Shown here in pieces: positions 16,206 to 39,137 of a stretch of 48,606 bases of DNA (positions are counted from its first letter, which is position 1; every line of letters begins with the position of its first letter). The position numbers and the translations under genes are program-made. The notes under the pieces were generated by a model that had not been told where the DNA came from, made no database searches, and saw nothing but the letters and a program-made list of their open reading frames with translations. The DNA comes from a virus. The stretch is taken from the IMG/VR virus record IMGVR_UViG_3300047586_000069, positions 1-48,606 of that record; one strand, given 5' to 3'.

Positions 16206-17360
16206 ATGTCACCAAGTCCAGACAGCAGACTTGATGCGTTATTTAGTCGTAATTCTGTTTTTAAGCAATTGAATGTCCTGGATACTCGATATATTCCCGA
16301 AACAATCATCGGTCGGGATGAACAGTTGGACGAAGTATCTGCGAATGTGCAGAGCATCATTGACAATTATGCTCCCAGCAATATGTGGCTTACTGGTCCT
16401 CCCGGGACTGGAAAAACGCTGGTCATCCGCTATATAATGGATTATCTGCAAAAGCGCGCTAAGTTTCAGTATGCTTATGTTATCGCTACGGGATCACCGC
16501 ATCCTCTTATACGGAACATCACTTTACAATGCGGTTGTCGACTCCCTGTTGGTTATATGCGAAGCATTAGTGATATGCGGGGATATTTTGAATTCTGGTT
16601 GGAGAAGAATCAATCAAATGCGATTATCGTGGTGGATGAAGTTGATTTGCTCATTGACAGCAATGCCGAGCAACTTTATGACTCACTAGCCAGGACTCCA
16701 CACGTTTGTGTGATAGGTATTTCAAATAAAGAAAGCAGTATCTTGAAAATAGAAAATATCAAGTTGGATTCTTCACTGCAGCCGATACCTGTGAGATTCC
16801 CACCATACACTCAGCATGAACTTGAAGATATTTTAGCACATCGCGCGAGTCTCGCATTCAAGGAAAACGTCATGGATCCTATTCTAGTGAAGCAGTTTGC
16901 TGCCATAGCATATCAGCACGGTGGAGATGCACGCTTCGGCCTTGCTCTTCTTAAGGAAGGTGGCATGCTCGCTAATATGGCACAACGAGGCGCAATAACC
17001 CACAAGGATCTTGACGAAGCAGAAAGAAAACTTGACAGGGAAAGCATTATCATACCACTTTTGTTCCTTCCAAATGTCGAGAAAAAATTGTTATATCTCT
17101 TATTGAAACACGGAGAAACTGAGAGGCTACGCCTTTACGAGTGGTATAAGAAATTTTCACAGGAGCATTATGGACGTGTATATAGTCATTCTACTATCAG
17201 AAGCCATCTAACACGATTGGAAGCTCAAAATTATATCGTCGGCTGGCCGGTCGGACGTGGCAGGGCCCGGGGGATCAAGAACATGGTAAAAGCTAGTGAG
17301 GAGGTTCCGAAAGAGGACGCCATTGAGGCGTTAGAAAAGTATTTGGGCCTTTCTGAATAG
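16206..17360 (+). CDS. cdc6: Orc1/Cdc6 replication initiator
   Basis: A 384-residue AAA+ protein of normal length for archaeal Orc1/Cdc6. Visible motifs: IIGRDEQLDEV near 34, Walker A GPPGTGKT (64-71), Walker B IVVDEVD (about 141-147), a sensor 1 region GISNKES, and the arginine-rich lid with GGDARFGLALL. The C-terminal about 100 residues form a winged helix (LRLYEWYKKF, TIRSHLTRLEAQNYI). It should bind the origin, unwind DNA and recruit the host MCM helicase; no viral helicase or polymerase gene is present, so the host replisome is presumably used. The adjacent control region and palindrome make 15797-16205 the likely origin. Confidence 0.93.
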   Translation: MSPSPDSRLDALFSRNSVFKQLNVLDTRYIPETIIGRDEQLDEVSANVQSIIDNYAPSNMWLTGPPGTGKTLVIRYIMDYLQKRAKFQYAYVIATGSPHPLIRNITLQCGCRLPVGYMRSISDMRGYFEFWLEKNQSNAIIVVDEVDLLIDSNAEQLYDSLARTPHVCVIGISNKESSILKIENIKLDSSLQPIPVRFPPYTQHELEDILAHRASLAFKENVMDPILVKQFAAIAYQHGGDARFGLALLKEGGMLANMAQRGAITHKDLDEAERKLDRESIIIPLLFLPNVEKKLLYLLLKHGETERLRLYEWYKKFSQEHYGRVYSHSTIRSHLTRLEAQNYIVGWPVGRGRARGIKNMVKASEEVPKEDAIEALEKYLGLSE

Positions 17361-27275: not shown

Positions 27276-27543
27276 AGAGAAAATCGTTAAAAAAGTTTGC
27301 GTGGACGTAGAAGTGCCAGTGAAAAAGTCCAGAGAGTGTCAGTTGTGTGGGGATCGGCTTACCAAACAAAATCGCGTAGAACTTTATGCTAAATTGCATG
27401 ATGGTGAGCTATATCTAGCCGGACAACTTTGCTTTTCTTGTTGGGAGCACTTGTTAACATCATCGGGAAAACGCGCAGCAGATTTTAAACACAACGCGAT
27501 TGAACAGAAAAAAATATTAGTAAATGCCAAAGCAGAAACTTAA
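27268..27543 (+). CDS. 91-residue zinc-ribbon protein
   Basis: CQLCGDRLTK and LCFSCWEHLL form a zinc ribbon about 30 residues apart, with a beta-rich middle. It overlaps the minor head gene by 20 bases, suggesting coupled translation. Function unknown. Confidence 0.6.
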   Translation: MTEEKIVKKVCVDVEVPVKKSRECQLCGDRLTKQNRVELYAKLHDGELYLAGQLCFSCWEHLLTSSGKRAADFKHNAIEQKKILVNAKAET

Positions 27544-28291
27544 ACCCTGGACTAAACAGCATCAACAGGTCGTCGAGAGACTGATCGCTCGGCATACAGA
27601 CATAATCAGAACGAACGTTTATGATCGCGAACTCTCTCCGACAGAAAAACTCATTAGAGACGTAGCAGTCGGGGCGACATTCGCGACCATAGTCGGAGCG
27701 ATCATTCTCAAACTTCCAACGCTAAACCCGAGATTTGCTGCTCTCTGGTACCCGGCCTTAAGAAACGTCTACGAGGGGACTGTCACCCAGGCGTCAGTTC
27801 TCGTTAGCGACATCGTCGGAGTGAAACCGCCCTTAGACATCCAAACTCTCGTCGATATGTACCTAAGGGATCAGGGAGCGCAGAACATCAAAGGAATACT
27901 CGAGGAAGACCAGAGATGGATGAGTGCAGTGCTTAGAAACGGTGCGCAGGAAGGCAAAGAAACAAGCGAGATCATCAAGGACATAACGACTCACTTTCCT
28001 GATTATAGCGAAGGCAGGGCCGGCACGATAGCGCGAACAGAGATTCACGCAGCTGACGGATACGCTTCAAATGAGATGATGAAAGACGCGGCTCCTGGAA
28101 TGCAAAAAAGGTGGATTTGTATGTTTCAGAATAGTCGCGACGCGCACATGGACGCGGACGGCCAGACGGTCGACCTTGAGGACGATTTCGAGGTCGGTGG
28201 AGAATCAATGGCGTATCCGGGCGGCGGTGACGATCCAGAAAACAATATAAATTGCCAGTGTATCGTCGAATACATTCCGAGAGGATCATGA
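27524..28291 (+). CDS. Minor head protein (SPP1 gp7/F-like)
   Basis: A 255-residue protein. Its C-terminus carries the phage head morphogenesis pattern: ARTEIHAADGYASNEMM, RWICMFQNSRDAHMDADGQTV, then GESMAYPGGGDDPENNINCQC with conserved Cys and Asn. An N-terminal hydrophobic stretch (AVGATFATIVGAIILKL, about 48-64) is unusual for the family. Minor head proteins sit near the portal and aid DNA entry or ejection. Normally this gene follows the portal gene; here it precedes the terminase by more than 700 bases including a tRNA. Confidence 0.8.
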   Translation: MPKQKLKPWTKQHQQVVERLIARHTDIIRTNVYDRELSPTEKLIRDVAVGATFATIVGAIILKLPTLNPRFAALWYPALRNVYEGTVTQASVLVSDIVGVKPPLDIQTLVDMYLRDQGAQNIKGILEEDQRWMSAVLRNGAQEGKETSEIIKDITTHFPDYSEGRAGTIARTEIHAADGYASNEMMKDAAPGMQKRWICMFQNSRDAHMDADGQTVDLEDDFEVGGESMAYPGGGDDPENNINCQCIVEYIPRGS

Positions 28292-28650: not shown

Positions 28651-28741
28651 GGGCCTGTACCATAGTCTGGTCAAGTGGGACTGCCTCCAGAGCAGTTGAT
28701 GGGTCTCCATCACTTGGGTTCAAATCCCAACAGGCCCGCCA
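28651..28741 (+). tRNA. Class II tRNA, anticodon CCA, encoded CCA end
   Basis: Acceptor GGGCCTG/CAGGCCC (28651-28657, 28731-28737), D arm CCAT/GTGG with CTGGTCAA loop, anticodon stem ACTGC/GCAGT with loop CTCCAGA (anticodon CCA at 28687-28689, codon UGG), long variable arm TGATGG-GTCT-CCATCA (28697-28712), T arm TTGGG-TTCAAAT-CCCAA, discriminator G73 and an encoded CCA (28739-28741). All stems are complete. The anticodon is tryptophan's, but the long variable arm and G73 are those of archaeal serine tRNAs. CCA differs from the serine anticodon CGA by one base. Charging identity is therefore unclear. Confidence 0.85.
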
Positions 28742-29061
28742 ATAGTTTTAAAAATGCATCACAAAGATATATAAATTACCCTTTTTGTCAAGGTATAGTT
28801 GATTTTATAACAAGAAAAAATGTTCGGTTAGAGACACGTTCCGTTTATGTTTACTAAATCAAAATCTGATTATTTTTCGGTTTGAAGTCTTGGTAGGCTT
28901 CGTTTTGGGTAGTTTCTTATGGGTCAACATCGCGGCATTCACATTACACCAATAAGAAACTTGCTAATCTTCCTCCTTTAAATACTTTCAACCGCTTTAT
29001 TTTAAGCAAATATATATTAACTCTTAAATGAGCGTAGCTATTTTTTAATTTGTGCAAACGG
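28742..29061. other. Intergenic region between tRNA and terminase, with promoter
   Basis: AT-rich and without a supported gene. It contains the inverted repeat AGTTTCTTA/TAAGAAACT (28911-28919 and 28953-28961) and a TATA-like box AAATATATATTAA (about 29008-29020) some 45 bases before the small terminase start. This is probably the promoter of the packaging and head operon. Confidence 0.5.
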
Positions 29062-29526
29062 ATGACTGAACCTGAACCATGGCATCGCTTACCGAATGAA
29101 CGCTCTAAAGCATACCATCTTTTCTGTCTATATCGCGATATGGGGCCGCTTCGTTCACTCGAAAAACTCAGGCGGTCTATAGGGAAACAACAGGGTTACG
29201 CTTGGAATCTACAAAGATTCAGTTCTCGACATAGTTGGCAAGTACGGGTTCGGGCTTTTGATGACTACATTCTCAAACTCGAAGAAGTAGAGGCAATCCA
29301 GCGCATCAGGGACTTCAACAAGAAGCGTGCTGAACAAGCCGTAACGATGATGGATCAGGGGTTTGGCGTGATGGAAGGCGAATACTTGCAATCGGCCAAG
29401 GACAAGAACGACAGGTTCAAGTTGGGTTTCGACACGTTCCGCGCGATCCATAAACTAGATAAGGAGAAAGTCGAGCATAGCGGATCCGTTACCGTTGTTT
29501 TTTCTGACGAGGTGAAGGACGCTTGA
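29062..29526 (+). CDS. terS: Terminase small subunit
   Basis: A 154-residue protein directly upstream of, and overlapping, the large subunit. N-terminal HTH-like region (SKAYHLFCLYRDMGPLRSLE, KLRRSIGKQQGYAWNL with WQVRVRAFDDY) and a helical C-terminus, the usual layout of phage small terminases. It should recognise the packaging site. ATG 29062 is preferred; TTG 29050 is in frame. Identification is by pattern and position. Confidence 0.75.
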   Translation: MTEPEPWHRLPNERSKAYHLFCLYRDMGPLRSLEKLRRSIGKQQGYAWNLQRFSSRHSWQVRVRAFDDYILKLEEVEAIQRIRDFNKKRAEQAVTMMDQGFGVMEGEYLQSAKDKNDRFKLGFDTFRAIHKLDKEKVEHSGSVTVVFSDEVKDA

Positions 29527-30857
29527 GCGCTTCCGCTTCCGATGTCCTTTCGTCATTCGCTCCAATTAAAATAATACAACCAAAAAACTTTCCCCAGGAT
29601 TCTTTTATCAAACTCTTCAATTCCCGGACCCGTTATCTCGTCATATACGGAGGAGGCGGAGCGGGAAAGAGCATCGCAACGGCCCAGAAGATGATATTTA
29701 AAGCCCTGAAATACCCCAGAAGTCGCATTATAGTGATACGCAAATGGGGACCGCAGCTTAGGCACATCACGTTCCAGATGCTCATCGATATCATAGATAA
29801 GCATGAGATCCCGTGTTACGTCCAGAAATCCGAGATGATCATCCGCTTTGATAACGGCAGTGAAATCCTTTGCGTGGCAATCGTCGACACCGCCCGTGCA
29901 GAAGCTGCCTCGAGAATCAAATCGCTAACTGACATCACCGACATCTGGATAGAAGAACCCAATGATCTGACCCTGGATGAATTCGAAATGATCAAGTTGC
30001 GATTGAGGGGAGAGGAATTAGAAAGCGGTTACAGGCAGATAATCCTGACATTTAATCCAGTGAACAAAACCCACTGGCTTTATGAAGAGTTTAACTTCGC
30101 TGGAAAAGCACCTCCCGGCGTTGAAAGGCAGCATTACACTTATGAAGACAATGAGTTCGTGGACCAGGCCTTTAAGGAATATCTGCGTACGGGTATCAAG
30201 GATAAGAATCGCCATAAGGTTTATGCTTTGGGAGAATGGGGTGAGTTAGGAGAACTCGTCTATGAGAACTATACAGACAAGATTTTCGGTTACACATACG
30301 ATTACTTCGACGTCCTGATCGCCGGCGTGGACTTTGGTTTTTCAAATAGTCCCAATGCGTTCGCACTGTTTGGAATGATGGAGGATTCTTTCGAACTGTA
30401 TGTGATCAATGAGGTCTATGAGTTCGGAACGATGACAAGGGACTTCATTGATTCGATAAAAACGCAACTTAAAGATTACATCCCTGAGCGGATGATAAAA
30501 GAAATTCCTATGTACTGTGACTCTGCACGGCCTGAGGCAATCGAAGAGATGAGACGGGCGGAATTAAACGTTTTTCCCGCAAAGAAGGATGTACTCGACG
30601 GCATAAACACGGTAAGGCAATTTCAGATTTACGTGCATCCCGATTGTCCGAGTTTCCTGCGGGAGATCCAGGGATATGTTCGACAAAAAGATGCCAAAGG
30701 CAATGCCCTAGAAATGCCTGACAAACAGGCTGGGTTCGACCATCTTTGCGACTCGTTACGTTACGCATGTCACTCTTGGATGATGTCGAAAAAGAAACAG
30801 ATCAGCGGAGTCGTGCCGATAATGGGAAAGATCGCAACCCGTGAGAGGATGTATTGA
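29523..30857 (+). CDS. terL: Terminase large subunit
   Basis: A 444-residue protein of PBSX/Terminase_3-like type. ATPase motifs: YGGGGAGKS Walker A (42-50), IRKWGPQLR, DITDIWIEEPNDL Walker B region (137-149) and LTFNPVNKTHW motif III (175-185). Nuclease: AGVDFGF (Asp270), YCDSARPEAI (Asp333) and DHLCDSLRYA (Asp406/410). It translocates DNA into the prohead and cuts it. The start TTG 29523 overlaps the small subunit stop (TTGA). With these residues intact it should be functional. Confidence 0.93.
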   Translation: MSASASDVLSSFAPIKIIQPKNFPQDSFIKLFNSRTRYLVIYGGGGAGKSIATAQKMIFKALKYPRSRIIVIRKWGPQLRHITFQMLIDIIDKHEIPCYVQKSEMIIRFDNGSEILCVAIVDTARAEAASRIKSLTDITDIWIEEPNDLTLDEFEMIKLRLRGEELESGYRQIILTFNPVNKTHWLYEEFNFAGKAPPGVERQHYTYEDNEFVDQAFKEYLRTGIKDKNRHKVYALGEWGELGELVYENYTDKIFGYTYDYFDVLIAGVDFGFSNSPNAFALFGMMEDSFELYVINEVYEFGTMTRDFIDSIKTQLKDYIPERMIKEIPMYCDSARPEAIEEMRRAELNVFPAKKDVLDGINTVRQFQIYVHPDCPSFLREIQGYVRQKDAKGNALEMPDKQAGFDHLCDSLRYACHSWMMSKKKQISGVVPIMGKIATRERMY

Positions 30858-31070: not shown

Positions 31071-32549
31071 TTGCCGGGGATGAAAAAGCAGGGGACTAAA
31101 ACGACTAAAAACAAGGTCGACACATTCGCCGAAGTCGGGACAATCGGGTTACGTCAGTCTGGCGGCATAATCGAGGAAGAGTGGTTGCGTGAACTTCAAG
31201 GCGAGCAGAAAATTAAAACGCTCAAGACTATGGAGGCCACGGAAGCGATCGCGTTTGCTGGTATATTTATATCCAAGATGGCGATCAAGCAGGTTAAATT
31301 CTGGTTCAACGAGGCAGGCGATACTGAAGCAGATGCACAGGCGAAAATCTTTGCTGAACAATGTCGCGAGGATCTGGAGGACGCATGGGGCCGTTACACT
31401 GACGAATGGATGACGTGTATAGCGCTCGGTTACTCTGTCGCTGAAACTGTTTATAAATTAAGGGTAGGGCCCGACGAGGAAGACCCATCGCGCAGGAGTC
31501 TCTACGATGACGGAAAAATAGGCTGGAGGAAGTTCGCGTTCCGCCCCCAGGAGACGCTCGATCACTGGGAGTTCGACCCTGATAATGGCGAGTTGCTCGG
31601 GATGTGGCAGCGCGACCCGATCAAAGGCGAGTCATATTTCATTCCAAAAACAAAGATGCTTCATTTCGTGATGAACTCGACTAAAGGGAACCCGGAAGGG
31701 TTGAGTCAGTTAAGGGGTGCGTATCCTGCTTATTACAAAAAACACAAACTCGAAGAAGCCGAACTCGTTCACATAATACGAAACGTAGCGGGGATCCCCG
31801 AACTCAAGATTCCCTCTGTTGAGTTCAAAAAAGACAAGGACGGAGGCAAAAGTCCGGCCCTCCAGACATTCGAGGACATTGGCAGGGACTTCTACAAAAA
31901 CGAGGAATCGTATTTCATCATCCCATCGGACGTTTATCAAGGAACGCAGGTCCCGATGTATCATGTCGGCCTCACTGCTGACCAACAGCCGAGCGGATCG
32001 CTGCCGACCACTGAGCCAATCAATCGCTGCCGGACAGATATCGCTCTCGTCCTTAACCTGACGTTCATGCTGCTGGGATCAAATACCGTCGGGTCACATG
32101 CTCTCGCAGAAACGCAGGCAGACTTCTTTGTCATGTTCATCGAAGGCATTTGCGATATGATCTGTGAGGTGTTTAACCGGCAGGCGGTCCCTCAGCTTTT
32201 CAAACTCAATACGTGGGAAGGGCTGACCGGACTTCCTAAGTTGGTTCATGATAACGTAGCGAAGACAGACGTTGCTAAACTAGGTGAGATATTGCTTAAC
32301 TTGATGCGGGCCGGAGTTCAGGTATTCCCGAACGACGAACTTCAGGAGCATATCTATGAAGAACTAGGAGTTCCGAAAGGCGAAACCATACCGACGCAGG
32401 AACAGCAGATAGCAGAAACGACTGCGGGGGGCAAGCAGACACCGCTCCAACAGACGCCGCTCCAACAGACGCCGCTCCAACAGACGCCGCAACCGTCTCA
32501 GCAAACAACGCAGAAATCCAACCGTTCTCGCAGGAGGCAGAAACAATGA
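31071..32549 (+). CDS. Portal protein (DUF935-like)
   Basis: A 492-residue protein after the terminase. AGGGGGTGA is followed after six bases by TTG 31071; ATG 31080 is an alternative. Portal features: an early AFAGIFISKMAIKQVKFWFN, then a wing and a clip region with WRKFAFRPQETLDHWEFDP and MLHFVMNSTKGNPEGLSQLRGAYPAYYKK, a typical portal sequence. The C-terminus has GVPKGE and ends in a Gln-rich tail with three TPLQQ repeats encoded by 15-bp units (about 32437-32490). The dodecamer forms the DNA entry vertex of the head. Confidence 0.9.
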   Translation: MPGMKKQGTKTTKNKVDTFAEVGTIGLRQSGGIIEEEWLRELQGEQKIKTLKTMEATEAIAFAGIFISKMAIKQVKFWFNEAGDTEADAQAKIFAEQCREDLEDAWGRYTDEWMTCIALGYSVAETVYKLRVGPDEEDPSRRSLYDDGKIGWRKFAFRPQETLDHWEFDPDNGELLGMWQRDPIKGESYFIPKTKMLHFVMNSTKGNPEGLSQLRGAYPAYYKKHKLEEAELVHIIRNVAGIPELKIPSVEFKKDKDGGKSPALQTFEDIGRDFYKNEESYFIIPSDVYQGTQVPMYHVGLTADQQPSGSLPTTEPINRCRTDIALVLNLTFMLLGSNTVGSHALAETQADFFVMFIEGICDMICEVFNRQAVPQLFKLNTWEGLTGLPKLVHDNVAKTDVAKLGEILLNLMRAGVQVFPNDELQEHIYEELGVPKGETIPTQEQQIAETTAGGKQTPLQQTPLQQTPLQQTPQPSQQTTQKSNRSRRRQKQ

Positions 32550-32696: not shown

Positions 32697-35600
32697 ATGC
32701 CAGGAGTCGACTTTCATCTCGCTACTCTTCGAAAAGTAAAAGTGTATCTTCCCGAGTGGGCCTTAAAGGAGATACACTCGAGGGCCTTTGCCAAATCAGG
32801 CGGAAAAGCTAGATGGCGACAAGGCGAGGCAGAACGATACGGTCCCGAAGGAATCAGCAAAGAATATCTCGAAGCGACCTACGACGTCGTGAGCGAACAT
32901 AAGGACTTGATCCCCGCGTGGCTCTTTAATAAACTTCATGAGATGGCATTCCCATCATCGGGAGGAATAGCGAAGGCTCGAAAATATAAAGCAGGTAAGA
33001 AAGAACCGCTCGCAAAAACGTCACTCGCTGAGATGACCCCTGACAAACTCAAGAAACTCCCGGATGCTGAACTCGGTCAGGCATGGTTCAGAGTCAATGA
33101 ATGGTATGTCGGAGCCAAGAAGAATGGAAAGGCGGTCGAAACGTTCATCAATGCTGGATCGTTTGTCTATGATGAGATGAAAGCCCGAAAGTATCACGTC
33201 AACGACAAACTGGATCTGGTTAAAGCTATCAGGAAGTTGCGTTTACAGGCTTTAAAGCAGGATTACTCGAAGGATGAAAGCGACACCGCCGGAAAGGGCT
33301 CCACTGCAAGCTTTAAATCGGAAAAAGAAACAGTGAAAAAACAGTCTGATTCGCTATCCATCGACCTCAACGCCTTATTCGATAATGCGCCCGATGACGT
33401 GCTTCTTGTGCCCGATTTCGTCGATTTCGTCGGGTCATCTGTAACTGGCCATCAACCGAACGATCTTGACATTTTATTCAGGGCCGATGAGAAGAATCAG
33501 AACTTCCTACTTCAATCGGAAAACATTCAACTCAGGATTCAGCAGGTGCTCGATCCTGAGAAGAAAGGGTTATTGCATTATGTCAACAATCCTCAAGGGA
33601 GTCATGCCGATTATGTTCCGTTATATGATTTAAGACTCGTTAAGGTAAACAAGTTTGGCAAAACGTTGGTAAAGTCAGATGAGATTCGTCCTGGCGCACA
33701 CTTCAGTCCAGAGAAACCAAGCATGGCCGGCGTGACTGAATACTTCAACACCTCAGAACTGTGGAGTGAGTGGGCCAAAGATAAACTTATCAAAGGCGCT
33801 AAACTTATTGGGGAGGTTAAATATGACGGATTCCGCTGCATCGTTACAAAGCAGGGTCAATCGGTAACAGTTTGGTATGAGGACGCTGAGGCAGATCGTT
33901 CAAAAGCAATTCCCGATTTTATTGCTGCAGTTAAGAAGGCCCCATTCGATTCATTCATTTTGGATGGCGAGATGCTTGCCAAATGGAATGATAAACTCGT
34001 TCCGAGGACACAGACGCTTGGACTACTAAGTGATAAACCATTCGAATTTGAACCTTATCTTTACATTTTCGATTGTTTGTATCTGAATGGTGAGGACCTG
34101 CATGGAAAGTCGCTTGAAGAACGGCACCAATTGGCAGCAAATGTAGTTAAACGTCTCGATCCTACGTTTTTCACTCACTCGACGCCCAAAGTAATCACCG
34201 ACGAGAAGTCACTTCAGATCATTGGAAAGTGGGCAGCTGCCCAGGAAGGATCTGAGGGATTGATGGTCAAGGATGCTACCAAACCATACCAGTTCGCCGC
34301 GTCTGAGGATTGGGCCAAATATAAAACGATAGTCGAAGAAAAATGCTGCGTCCTTTCTCGCGATCGTAAACAAAATGGCTATTCTTATCGATGCGGACTG
34401 CGTGATGACGGTACCTATACTAACAAAACAAAGTTAGGAAACCAGTCTTATATCGATCTGGGCAACACGTTCGTCCTGCCGCAGAACATAGCGAATGTTG
34501 GCGACACGATAAACGTGCAGATCGAGGAACTCATAATCCAGCGCGCGGACGACGGATCTCTGTCACTTGCTATGGGGAAACCAACGGTCCGCGGCCCCGA
34601 TAAGTCCCGGCCGGCGTATACGGCATCCCAGGCGGTTCAAGTCGCCCGCGCTGGACACATTCTAAAAGAGGAAGTAAAGAAGATTGATCTCTATCCGAAT
34701 CGGCCACTATTAAAAGAAGATATGCCGCTCATTGCATTCGTAGGCGGTTCACCCGATCCTCTTGAGATTGCGCGTGAAGAGTCGATGGTCAGTGTTCACG
34801 GTAGGATGTTTAAGGAAGAATATCTTGATCCATTGGGTCTTGAGAAAAACGAAGTGGCGTTGCTTAATATCGTGCCGCTTGTATTACGGGATCCAGAGGG
34901 GCACGTTCGCGGTCCGAATCAATCGGAAGCGGCAAAGTGGTTGCCCTGGGTCAATGAAGAGCTCGAAAACCTTAATCCAGATTTTACGATTGCCCTCGGT
35001 CATGCCGCCGCAAACACGCTTTCAACCGCAATTGACATGGTCCTGCCCCATCCAAAAGCATTGACCCACTCCTCGAGGCCGGAACTGAATCGAAAAATAA
35101 AGCAGTTTCAACGGATGCTTATTAAGCAAGCGTCTATGGAAGAGCAAGAGACGCGGGGTCAAGCCGCTGAACAGTTCTGGCACGACAACTGGTTTAAGGA
35201 ATTTCCAGTATCAGGATCCGGGAAATTTGTCATTCACGAACACTGGAGAGGACTCACGAAAGACGAGTTGACCGCGTCGCGTGACGAGTTAATCAAATCA
35301 GGTCATTCAGTCCACAGTGATCTCAGATTGCAGAGCGACGCTAAAGAACTACACGGTTGGACGATCTTTCTGGGACCTGCTGACAAAAATCAGACGAACC
35401 GCTTTATCGATCTTCCGCCGACCGACAACCTGCAGGTCACACCTAAACAGTTGGAACCTATTTCATGGTTGACTTATCATGGCGCATCTGAACCTGGAGC
35501 AGTCGGAGCGACGTCACAGAAATTCGCGAGATTCGACATCGTGGATCACGGCACGTACCGTATCGGCGTTTGGCGAGAGCATTATTTCGAATATTTCCTG

Positions 35601-36455
35601 AGCGGGGAGAAAGTAAAGGGCCGTGTTCAGGTTCAATACGCGCCGATGGGCGGAACTGGTCAGAATCGTGTTTGGCTGATTGGCAGGCCACAGGATCAGA
35701 AACCTTACTCAGACTCACATAAACTCGCTGACGTCATTAAGGAGCTGAAAGACAAAGATCAGCAATACCTCGTCTGGTGTGATGGAAAATCAAAACCCGA
35801 CGCTTTGGACCTAACTAAGCCGATAGAGATTAAAGGTCTTCCTTGGTACGATAAGATAATAACCAAAACAAAGAAGGATGCGAAACTTACGGCTTTATAT
35901 AAAACAAACACACCTTATAACTTTGATCACACGTTCGAGTTGTTATCAGCCGATGACAATGAAAATCGCCTTGTGACCGGAGTCGTTTACAAACCTAACG
36001 AACTTGACACCCAACGCGAATGGGGCCCGCCTGATGAACTGGAAAAGGCGGCCCGTTGGTGGATGGAACACAGTCAGGCGACAGGCGTCCGGCACGTACG
36101 GCGGGCTGAAGCTCGCGTGACGCAGAGCTACATAGCTCCGCAAGACATTACGATAGGAAACAGACTCGTTAAAGCTGGCAGTTGGATCGTTGAACTCCGC
36201 ATCCTTGCCAAGAGGTTGTGGCAGGAAATCAAGACGGGGGTTTATAACGCCTTCAGCATGGGCGGTTACGTTACTCGCACTCCGGGAATATTGCCGCCAG
36301 GGTTGAGCAAAGCGAAAGCAGGCGATCGGTCGACGATCAATAAACTGAGCGACATACAACCGCTGGAGATCACGCTTTGCGCGAGTGGGGCCAATAAAGA
36401 AAAACGGTTCCCGCTCTTAAAGTGCGATATGTGTCCAGCATTGGGATACAGCTAA
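32697..36455 (+). CDS. NTase-DNA ligase-UDG-like-3'-phosphoesterase-XkdF protease fusion
   Basis: A 1252-residue multidomain chain. About 10-110: duplicated helical unit with (L/I)P-W....LHEMAF..SGG. About 225-330: nucleotidyltransferase-like, GSSVTGHQPNDLD (246-258). About 340-640: ATP-dependent DNA ligase with EVKYDG (Lys375), ILDGEM (423-425), SEGLMVKD (519-526), WAKYK (539-543) and OB fold. About 675-790: UDG-like, FVGGSPDP (682-688), ALGHAAANTL, HP (785). About 840-970: LigD-type 3'-phosphoesterase, His847/His849 and HSDLR (873-877). About 1085-1245: XkdF-type prohead protease, VTGVVYKP, His1133, AFSMGG (Ser1187). Between portal and scaffold it occupies the protease slot. The ligase and protease calls are strong by motif; UDG is the weakest. 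Confidence 0.85.
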   Translation: MPGVDFHLATLRKVKVYLPEWALKEIHSRAFAKSGGKARWRQGEAERYGPEGISKEYLEATYDVVSEHKDLIPAWLFNKLHEMAFPSSGGIAKARKYKAGKKEPLAKTSLAEMTPDKLKKLPDAELGQAWFRVNEWYVGAKKNGKAVETFINAGSFVYDEMKARKYHVNDKLDLVKAIRKLRLQALKQDYSKDESDTAGKGSTASFKSEKETVKKQSDSLSIDLNALFDNAPDDVLLVPDFVDFVGSSVTGHQPNDLDILFRADEKNQNFLLQSENIQLRIQQVLDPEKKGLLHYVNNPQGSHADYVPLYDLRLVKVNKFGKTLVKSDEIRPGAHFSPEKPSMAGVTEYFNTSELWSEWAKDKLIKGAKLIGEVKYDGFRCIVTKQGQSVTVWYEDAEADRSKAIPDFIAAVKKAPFDSFILDGEMLAKWNDKLVPRTQTLGLLSDKPFEFEPYLYIFDCLYLNGEDLHGKSLEERHQLAANVVKRLDPTFFTHSTPKVITDEKSLQIIGKWAAAQEGSEGLMVKDATKPYQFAASEDWAKYKTIVEEKCCVLSRDRKQNGYSYRCGLRDDGTYTNKTKLGNQSYIDLGNTFVLPQNIANVGDTINVQIEELIIQRADDGSLSLAMGKPTVRGPDKSRPAYTASQAVQVARAGHILKEEVKKIDLYPNRPLLKEDMPLIAFVGGSPDPLEIAREESMVSVHGRMFKEEYLDPLGLEKNEVALLNIVPLVLRDPEGHVRGPNQSEAAKWLPWVNEELENLNPDFTIALGHAAANTLSTAIDMVLPHPKALTHSSRPELNRKIKQFQRMLIKQASMEEQETRGQAAEQFWHDNWFKEFPVSGSGKFVIHEHWRGLTKDELTASRDELIKSGHSVHSDLRLQSDAKELHGWTIFLGPADKNQTNRFIDLPPTDNLQVTPKQLEPISWLTYHGASEPGAVGATSQKFARFDIVDHGTYRIGVWREHYFEYFLSGEKVKGRVQVQYAPMGGTGQNRVWLIGRPQDQKPYSDSHKLADVIKELKDKDQQYLVWCDGKSKPDALDLTKPIEIKGLPWYDKIITKTKKDAKLTALYKTNTPYNFDHTFELLSADDNENRLVTGVVYKPNELDTQREWGPPDELEKAARWWMEHSQATGVRHVRRAEARVTQSYIAPQDITIGNRLVKAGSWIVELRILAKRLWQEIKTGVYNAFSMGGYVTRTPGILPPGLSKAKAGDRSTINKLSDIQPLEITLCASGANKEKRFPLLKCDMCPALGYS

Positions 36456-36555
36456 TCCAGCAAAACCAAACAGACTAATCGATTCGTTTTCTGTCGAATT
36501 GGAATTTGAATTACGCTTTACTAGACGAGACGAGACGAAACTATGGAGGAATTTC

Positions 36556-37359
36556 ATGGAAATGGATGAAGATATTCTTCAGGCCGTTTTCGATACGCCA
36601 TTGCAGACGCAGGAGTTCATCGACGCTTTAGGCAGGATGGAAAAGGCGGCTATGGACCCGAAGGCCCAGAAGCAGCTTGAGGGGGCACTCAAACTCATCG
36701 AATCGAGTTCGGATGTCCCAGAGGTCGCCAAGATTGTCGACCTGATTAAAAAGGCTCTAAGCGGCTATGGGTATCCGGCTCCTTCTGGAACTGGAAAGTC
36801 TGCTGACGCAAACAAGATCGAAAAAAAGGACCTGAAGAAAGAAGACACTAAAGATTCAAAGGACGCTGATAAAGGCAAGGACAAACTCGTTAAGAATGGC
36901 GATCCTGCGCTAGATGCCAAACTCGAGGAGTTCTACAAAGAACATGAAGCGCAAGGAAAGATGCTCAAGGAAGCCAATAAGCAGATCGAGGAGCTAAAGA
37001 AAGTCGAGAAGATGCGCGGCTACATGACGAAGGCCTCAGAGTTTGACGCTCTACCTCAAGACGGTCTGCCTGAGATGCTTATGGAAGTCGGTGAGACCAA
37101 CCCTGATTCCCTTGCGAAGTTCGAGGCGATTCTTACCAGTGCGAATGAGGCGAACAAGCAAAGCAAAATCATGCAGGAGATCGGGACGTCTGAACTCCCG
37201 AAGGGTATTCTTGGAGAAGTCGACGCAGGTGTCAAGGAGCTTATGAAGAAGTCCGGCGACCTGACGGAAGCGGCGGCTCGGGTCCAGTTCATAAAGGCCC
37301 ATCCCGAGAAGTACGACGAACTCGAACGGGATCGCATGAGAACGGCAAGGGGGTCGTAA
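36556..37359 (+). CDS. Scaffolding protein
   Basis: A 267-residue protein between protease and capsid genes. ATG 36556 follows GGAGGA. Highly charged, with a Lys/Asp-rich linker (KIEKKDLKKEDTKDSKDADK) and a coiled-coil stretch (KLEEFYKEHEAQGKMLKEAN), which is the usual profile of capsid scaffolds. It would guide head assembly and be removed by the XkdF-type protease. The assignment rests on position and composition. Confidence 0.7.
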   Translation: MEMDEDILQAVFDTPLQTQEFIDALGRMEKAAMDPKAQKQLEGALKLIESSSDVPEVAKIVDLIKKALSGYGYPAPSGTGKSADANKIEKKDLKKEDTKDSKDADKGKDKLVKNGDPALDAKLEEFYKEHEAQGKMLKEANKQIEELKKVEKMRGYMTKASEFDALPQDGLPEMLMEVGETNPDSLAKFEAILTSANEANKQSKIMQEIGTSELPKGILGEVDAGVKELMKKSGDLTEAAARVQFIKAHPEKYDELERDRMRTARGS

Positions 37360-38159: not shown

Positions 38160-39137
38160 ATGCCACAACCAGTATTAAGCGATCTGTATTACAGTCAGAT
38201 CCAGCAAGACGTCAGCGTGATGAATCTTCAGAAACCTGATGATTTCATCGCTGACAAAGTCCTTCCCCGCCTGATGGTCGACAAGTCGAAGGGAATATAC
38301 TACATCTACGACGACGCGTATTTCCACACGGCCGGAGCCAGGAAAAGGTTGCCCGGAACGAAATCCAACACAGTCGGATTCACCGCTTCCCGGGCTAGTT
38401 TCTCGATCGATGAATGGGCTCTAAACTCGATCATCCCGGAAGAAGACTATGAGGAAGCAGATTCAGTGTTCGACCTCGACGCCGACCACACGACGATGTT
38501 GACTCAGAACATGAAAGTCTCGATGGAGGCAGAATTCATCTCCAATGTCATGGCCGCAGGGAAGTGGACGACGACCCTTTACGGTGAGGTCCACGGAGGT
38601 GGAGGTGGCGCGAGTTACTTCGACTACTGGTCAGACACGACCAACGGCGCTCCAATCACCGACATAAGGAGCGCCAAGAACACCATAGTTAAGGCCACTG
38701 GCCAGCGACCGAACAAATTGGTTCTCGCTCCTGAAGTGTACGACGCGCTCTGCGAGCATCCCGACATCCTGGCGAGATACACGCCGACGACTTCCAAGAC
38801 CGTCGATCAGACAGACCTCGCAAGATTATTTGGGGTTGACGAGGTTCTCGTTCCGTACGCGATCGCGAACACTGCCGCAGAAGGCCAGACCTACACGCCG
38901 AACTACATGCACAGCAAATACGCTCTGCTTCTCTACGTCACGGATGCGCCCGGAAAGCGGGTGCCAACCGGAGGCTACACCATCACGAAGAGACAACAGG
39001 GCGCGCAGCCGGTGACGGTGCGGAAAGGCCGTGAAGAGTTCCTGAAGCGAGCCAATATAATCGAGGTCGCGTCCTCGTGGAGCTTCAAGATCGTTGCTCC
39101 AGCGATGGGCGTGTTCTTCAGCGGGGCTGTAGCGTAA
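38160..39137 (+). CDS. Major capsid protein, HK97 fold
   Basis: A 325-residue protein with a GATAGGAGGTGAAAGAAAA leader, the strongest type of ribosome-binding site, as expected for an abundant product. It resembles gpE-like capsid proteins: IADKVLPRLMVDKSKGIYYI, a central TGQRPNKLVLAPEVYDALCE followed by HPDILARYTPT (P-domain helix and A-domain), RLFGVDEVLVPYAI, and a C-terminal RANIIEVASSWSFKIVAPAM. It builds the icosahedral shell. Confidence 0.9.
   Translation: MPQPVLSDLYYSQIQQDVSVMNLQKPDDFIADKVLPRLMVDKSKGIYYIYDDAYFHTAGARKRLPGTKSNTVGFTASRASFSIDEWALNSIIPEEDYEEADSVFDLDADHTTMLTQNMKVSMEAEFISNVMAAGKWTTTLYGEVHGGGGGASYFDYWSDTTNGAPITDIRSAKNTIVKATGQRPNKLVLAPEVYDALCEHPDILARYTPTTSKTVDQTDLARLFGVDEVLVPYAIANTAAEGQTYTPNYMHSKYALLLYVTDAPGKRVPTGGYTITKRQQGAQPVTVRKGREEFLKRANIIEVASSWSFKIVAPAMGVFFSGAVA

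Follow-up and report, generated by a model that had tools for sequence, protein, structure and literature searches.

The virus record IMGVR_UViG_3300047586_000069 (48,606 nt; the whole stretch of DNA analysed, hereafter the window) encodes a 1252-aa product, the window protein, from an intact 1252-codon frame with an ATG start (32697..36455, + strand). An ATP-dependent DNA ligase, a LigD-type 3'-phosphoesterase (PE), a domain of the uracil-DNA glycosylase (UDG) superfamily, a nucleotidyltransferase (NTase)-like domain and an XkdF-type prohead protease are almost certainly joined in this one polypeptide. Each domain belongs to a known family; what appears to be new is their fusion, together with its place among the capsid genes and its occurrence in tens of virus genomes. 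Because the arrangement recurs in tens of divergent virus contigs, sequence comparison places it far beyond chance. Our preferred reading, to which we assign a probability of roughly 0.55, is that the gene encodes a capsid-module polyprotein, a packaged enzyme that would be freed by its protease and would heal and seal breaks or ends in viral DNA.

Domains of the Window Protein

The ligase catalytic domain with the region following it (residues ~348–619; 33738..34553, +) carries the nucleophile Lys375 within KYDG (375–378), as well as DGE (423–425), SEGLMVK (519–525) and KYK (541–543); the KxDG lysine and motifs III, IV and V, by which the adenylation domain of an ATP-dependent ligase is recognised, are thus all present. 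The UDG-superfamily domain, family-4-like, occupies residues ~678–809 (34728..35123, +), and the XkdF-type (Peptidase_S78_2) prohead protease, with His1133 and Ser1187, residues ~1085–1194 (35949..36278, +). Pfam scans of the window protein matched DNA_ligase_A_M at residues 366–543 (E 1.6e-24), UDG at 679–794 (E 3.1e-10) and Peptidase_S78_2/XkdF at 1082–1191 (E 1.2e-22), all above the curated cut-offs, and PHROGs also called the ligase (4.7e-17) and a head maturation protease (1.9e-28). Against the PDB, the ligase profile reached 7.6e-30, with archaeal and LIG1-type structures matching better than LigD, and the UDG profile matched a solved UDG at 4.7e-18 and family-4 enzymes at about 1e-13. 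Across the family, the ligase Lys is retained in 36/38 sequences, the EG pair in 35–36 of 36 and the first Lys of motif V in 35/35, and both the catalytic His and the catalytic Ser of the protease are found in 24/24. In the UDG-like domain, the LPHP motif is retained; motif 1 is GGSPD in the window protein, where many relatives have GASPG. Two features expected of an XkdF-type protease were found, namely a Peptidase_S78_2 domain with its His and Ser and a gene lying between portal and capsid genes.

An initial annotation of the window, made from the sequence alone, had proposed these domains from short motifs. A position check found every motif at the residue given, and the proposed ligase and prohead protease (Pfam and PHROGs, plus PDB for the ligase) and UDG-like fold (Pfam and the solved UDG) were all recovered by profile searches. 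Chance motif matches were rejected for the ligase, UDG, protease and PE on the strength of the profile and structure matches.

The PE domain (residues ~837–1039; 35205..35813, +) contains His849 and the motif HSDLR at residues 873–877, which includes His873, Asp875 and Arg877. Pfam LigD_N did not match the window protein itself; it matched 16 of the 28 PE family members individually (best 5.8e-7). A profile built from the 28 members, compared with the PDB at E-values up to 5, gave five matches, every one of them a LigD PE structure (3p43, 3p4h, 5dmp, 3n9b and 2lj6; best 3p43, E 9.6e-8). The AlphaFold model of the window segment (pLDDT 94.6, pTM 0.90) pointed the same way, as the seven significant Foldseek matches in the PDB were all LigD PE domains; in BFVD, one viral protein only was significantly matched. 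The alignment of the 28 sequences shows four invariant columns, H, H, D and R, and His-x-Asp-x-Arg is retained in 30–31 of 33 sequences across the family. By inspection, the invariant residues appear to correspond to His42/48, Asp50 and Arg52 of Pseudomonas aeruginosa LigD, for whose PE the metal- and phosphate-binding residues have been described (PMC8656161). The equivalent of His84, which forms with Tyr88 the anion-binding pair of LigD, seems to be replaced, judging by eye from the alignment column. At the level of the predicted structure, membership of the LigD 3'-phosphoesterase superfamily and the PE fold are confirmed, as the initial annotation had anticipated from HSDLR. That annotation had also raised the possibility that structure models would lack the ligase or protease fold; profiles give both ligase and protease, and the model gives the PE.

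The NTase-like domain (residues ~234–316; 33396..33644, +) was called at motif level from GSS...NDLD, present as GSSVTGHQPNDLD at residues 246–258. The Gly and both Asp of G[S/G]...DxD were found in 44/44 domain copies; profile matches were weak (NTP_transf_2, 0.0011; DNA_pol_B_palm, 0.011; Pol beta, 0.05). The top PDB matches of the NTase profile, Src constructs, were discarded as seemingly due to expression-tag sequence. The NTase identity proposed initially is likely at motif level, and the NTase fold is putative.

Two further regions precede it. The N-terminal region (residues 1–100; 32697..32996, +), made of two related stretches with S-G-G-x-A-type motifs, is common to L004, L006, L007 and L017–L025 (handles of family records). 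It is followed by a helical domain, NT2 (residues ~109–178; 33021..33230, +), whose Glu160 and Arg164 are invariant in 42/42 family copies. In 6 of 29 relatives, NT2 weakly matched Pyr_excise (T4 endonuclease V family; best 6.8e-4), and it may be what remains of a glycosylase, kept for DNA binding.

A Virus-Specific Family

With the window protein as sole query, only a deleted relative (L004/L005) was found, and the same was true of alignment A3; the family was reached through an alignment with the ANMV-1 virus and then an NTase-domain alignment, which retrieved 41 IMG/VR loci. Together with the window, ANMV-1 and earlier loci, these make up 44 non-redundant virus records, including a few close variants of one another. 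No member was found in 84,980 bacterial and archaeal genomes in two scans, and the fusion gene family is virus-specific.

Domain scans of the 44 records showed NTase plus ligase within one open reading frame (ORF) in 33 of them, ligase plus PE in 32, and NTase, ligase, PE and XkdF together in 20. The recurrence of the combination in other contigs, which the initial annotation had named as a check, was thus observed, and an assembly join of two genes was rejected, since the fusion recurs in many independent contigs. The annotation's concern that relatives might always encode the parts separately was not borne out: the 20 records encode the domains together, although in L030, L031, L038, L043 and L052 they are split between ORFs. 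The domain order of L017 is identical to that of the window, and L018, L021, L022, L024 and L025 present the same order with a methyltransferase inserted between NTase and ligase. Other orders were found in L019 and L044–L050, the latter with a second PE-like stretch. L034, L036, L042, L051, L010, L013 and ANMV-1 lack the protease. In the ligase tree, all 22 protease-fused rows fall on one well-supported side together with the unfused L010, L051 and L020 (the last running off its contig), and eight unfused rows fall on the opposite side, a split consistent with an old fusion.

Several relatives carry additional or rearranged parts. A SAM-dependent methyltransferase (Methyltransf_11), absent from the window, adjoins the NTase in many of them, mostly in the gap between NTase and ligase (L008, L009, L011, L016, L018–L022, L024, L025, L029 and others). 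The 1504-aa product of L013:6069-10580 starts with a metallo-beta-lactamase and ends with two PE-like stretches, with no protease, and in L012:3383-5119 a ChaB domain is fused before the NTase–ligase part. In L030:5211-8808, the fusion is split within the methyltransferase domain into two overlapping frames, by either a programmed frameshift or a sequencing error.

This strong shuffling and accretion (methyltransferase in many members, metallo-beta-lactamase in L013, ChaB in L012) bears on the possibility of an early effector or anti-defence protein of the polyvalent type, which would enter with the DNA and either repair breaks introduced by host nucleases or target the nucleic acids of the host, the variable domains then serving as alternative effectors. 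Polyvalent proteins fused to MuF or portal domains are predicted to be packaged in virions and injected (PMC5512222), and like them the fusion family is both multidomain and encoded with virion genes. The recurring core, however, is NTase, ligase and PE rather than the polyvalent hub domains of that paper, none of which (MPTase, ArdC, ART, PBECR) appeared by name in the Pfam scans of fusion-family proteins, and neither XkdF nor ChaB is mentioned in its text. We consider this explanation improbable.

Position in the Head Module

In the window, the fusion gene is immediately preceded by the portal gene (31071..32549, +; phrog_113, 7.7e-65) and immediately followed by a gene for a scaffold-like protein (36499..37359, +), called by position and composition, with no database match. 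The placement between portal and scaffold in the initial annotation therefore stands, by profile for the portal and by position for the scaffold. The terminase small and large subunit genes (29050..30857, +) lie further upstream, and the major capsid protein (MCP) gene (38160..39137, +; phrog_1005, 3e-64) further downstream. A MuF-like head morphogenesis gene (27524..28291, +), which adjoins the fusion in many relatives, is located here upstream of the terminase genes, and a tRNA-Trp gene (28651-28741) lies between the two.

Searches with window-derived profiles located the fusion gene directly after the portal gene, or after portal and MuF genes, in most records; downstream, where the sequence extends, a scaffold-like gene and then the MCP gene often follow. 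The order terminase large subunit, portal, (MuF), fusion, scaffold, MCP was seen across divergent contigs. With the same profiles, a portal gene was found to precede the protease-less or split members L034, L036, L042, L051 and L052. In L012, L043, L047 and ANMV-1, which the window-derived profiles had missed, PHROGs identified a portal gene immediately upstream; its portal match upstream in L010 and L013 was weak, with one small ORF intervening in L013. As the portal gene also lies upstream of protease-less members, the head-module position is independent of the protease. Neither this conservation nor the restriction of the family to viruses was visible to the initial annotation, which covered one genome.

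That position is unexpected for a replication enzyme, even where the protease is not fused, and makes it unlikely that the protein is a cytoplasmic replication or repair ligase whose protease fusion sets only its amount or timing, with release outside the capsid. Such a role would fit the existence of the split genes listed above, as well as the absence of any DNA ligase outside the fusion from the window and from 15 of the 16 other ligase-bearing records checked.

Three neighbouring genes were also recorded. ANMV-1 L002:1913-3193, annotated as a MutT-like phage hydrolase, was identified by PHROGs as a portal gene (2e-30), and L002:5868-9368, adjoining the ligase gene, encodes a 1166-aa cysteine-rich repeat protein with a MuF-like C-terminus. 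In L006:5351-7870, an intein-like insert that includes a homing-endonuclease-like region apparently divides the portal gene, as seen by eye.

Selection, Loss, and Decay of the Enzyme Parts

Estimates of dN/dS from close pairs with unsaturated dS were about 0.02–0.19 in every domain, and on these values all parts of the fusion protein are under purifying selection in related pairs. Low dN/dS and the retention of catalytic residues across the family make it very improbable that the enzyme domains are catalytically dead and serve the head only as filler, scaffold or DNA binders, an explanation for which the lost or decayed ligase of L004 and L007 could be invoked.

Several observations nevertheless weigh against a packaged repair polyprotein. 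L004/L005, the nearest relatives of the window by protease sequence (90% identity over the protease domain), have retained UDG and protease and lost the NTase, the PE and nearly all of the ligase, of which a relic, GETQSDGFR, persists with the nucleophile Lys gone; no other ligase was found on their 30 kb record. In L007 the ligase is degenerate, with PE and NTase motifs intact, and L006 has no PE. These losses show that some lineages can do without the enzyme set, which is therefore not a strict kit. In addition, UDG motif 1 is atypical, which leaves glycosylase activity of this domain uncertain, the AlphaFold model of the NTase is of low confidence, and Foldseek with that model gave no match. 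The relic in L004/L005 also suggests that the fusion pre-dates the split from the window lineage and that the enzyme part can be lost.

Proposed Role

For the packaged polyprotein, we infer virion location, self-cleavage and activity as follows. Like other prohead proteases, the fusion protein would be incorporated into the prohead during assembly; its protease domain would cut the enzyme part free during maturation, and the freed enzyme would stay in the head with the genome. There, the PE could heal 3' ends of the viral DNA, the NTase fill or tail short gaps, the UDG-like domain remove damaged bases and the ligase seal nicks or ends, most likely upon delivery of the genome to a new cell or following prolonged storage in the virion. 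The C-terminal XkdF domain is a plausible carrier of N-terminal cargo into the prohead, since annotation and gene position both mark XkdF proteases as head proteins, and the enzyme set suggests a cargo acting on DNA. This mode of action would mix the end healing of LigD with the virion-packaged base-excision repair (BER) of some large eukaryotic viruses, and would be Ku-free.

A more specific form of the proposal is that tailed viruses bearing this gene, at least some of them archaeal, carry a complete in-capsid break-repair polyenzyme which, installed and released by the maturation protease, is injected with the genome and repairs or joins viral DNA at entry. We advance it tentatively, at a little under even odds; repair of this kind would be specific to viruses, would not depend on Ku and would be built from interchangeable modules.

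The initial annotation had favoured genome-end joining, in which the packaged enzyme would close the incoming linear genome into a circle, by sealing cohesive ends or in a manner similar to non-homologous end joining (NHEJ). The gene does lie in the head module, and its ligase and LigD-type PE correspond to the end-healing pair of LigD (PMC8656161); moreover, according to PMC7719229, which cites Pitcher et al., the mycobacteriophages Omega and Corndog carry Ku genes and make use of the host's LigD while infecting. However, Ku was found in none of 24 records, which are possibly fragments and whose hosts may supply a Ku, and no polymerase domain of the AEP type present in LigD appeared in Pfam scans of the family proteins. 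NHEJ with a viral Ku is thus not supported, and the proposed LigD analogy stands for the ligase–PE pair and fails for Ku and polymerase. L004 lacks a ligase altogether, and end joining, which we regard as doubtful, has no need of a UDG domain. Because Ku and the AEP polymerase are missing, the enzyme set looks more like single-strand-break repair or BER, combined with cleaning of ends as in LigD, than canonical NHEJ; the NTase, the UDG-like domain and the methyltransferase of relatives fit such repair at least as well as NHEJ.

Host and Significance

The window encodes a Cdc6/Orc1-like initiator (16206-17360), found only there among 27 records searched; among 14 control genomes, this family was matched only in archaea. 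This protein, together with siphovirus tail genes in the window and the derivation of ANMV-1 from an uncultured archaeon, makes an archaeal host likely for the window virus, a reading that covers the window and not other family records. A search for MCM gave no hint of the host.

The initial annotation knew of no described system of this type, and we found no description of the fusion in the open-access literature, including papers on polyvalent proteins, jumbo phages, ANME-1 viruses and archaeal Caudoviricetes, subscription literature not being covered. If the packaged polyprotein is real, tailed prokaryotic viruses can build DNA repair into capsid assembly itself, whereas packaged repair has so far, to our knowledge, been known from large eukaryotic viruses; particles are then predicted to contain repair enzymes, and the protease to yield a defined product. 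With this family, LigD-type phosphoesterases and ligases also gain a large branch that is confined to viruses and had no annotation.

Comparison with Known Systems

The closest described protein is the ligase AJP62006 of ANMV-1 (KP703175), which likewise combines an NTase-like domain, a ligase and a LigD-type PE directly after the portal gene. In contrast to the window protein, with which it shares 24% identity over the matching stretch, it has neither UDG nor XkdF protease and is annotated just as a ligase. Bacterial LigD and the PE and ligase of archaeal NHEJ share with the fusion the PE superfamily and its catalytic His/His/Asp/Arg (PMC8656161); the fusion differs in being joined to a capsid protease and in lacking an AEP polymerase and a Ku partner. 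With XkdF-type prohead proteases (Peptidase_S78_2, phrog_3017), the fusion has in common the domain, its His/Ser and the head-module position. In a Lactococcus phage and a Halorubrum virus, however, the match to this domain begins near the N-terminus of a much shorter protein in which no repair domain was matched, whereas in the window it is C-terminal, behind about 1000 aa of enzyme domains.

Polyvalent proteins are likewise large and multidomain, and some are encoded with virion genes and predicted to be injected; their domain set is different, and the text of PMC5512222 contains no ligase/PE/XkdF fusion. In large eukaryotic viruses, the PolX–ligase fusion of PgV acts in BER (PMC5537341), and African swine fever virus packages BER enzymes in its particles (PMC12172490). 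Beyond their hosts, these systems differ in that the PgV ligase is NAD-dependent, the African swine fever virus proteins are separate and neither includes a fused capsid protease; what they would share with the fusion family is viral DNA repair through multiple activities.

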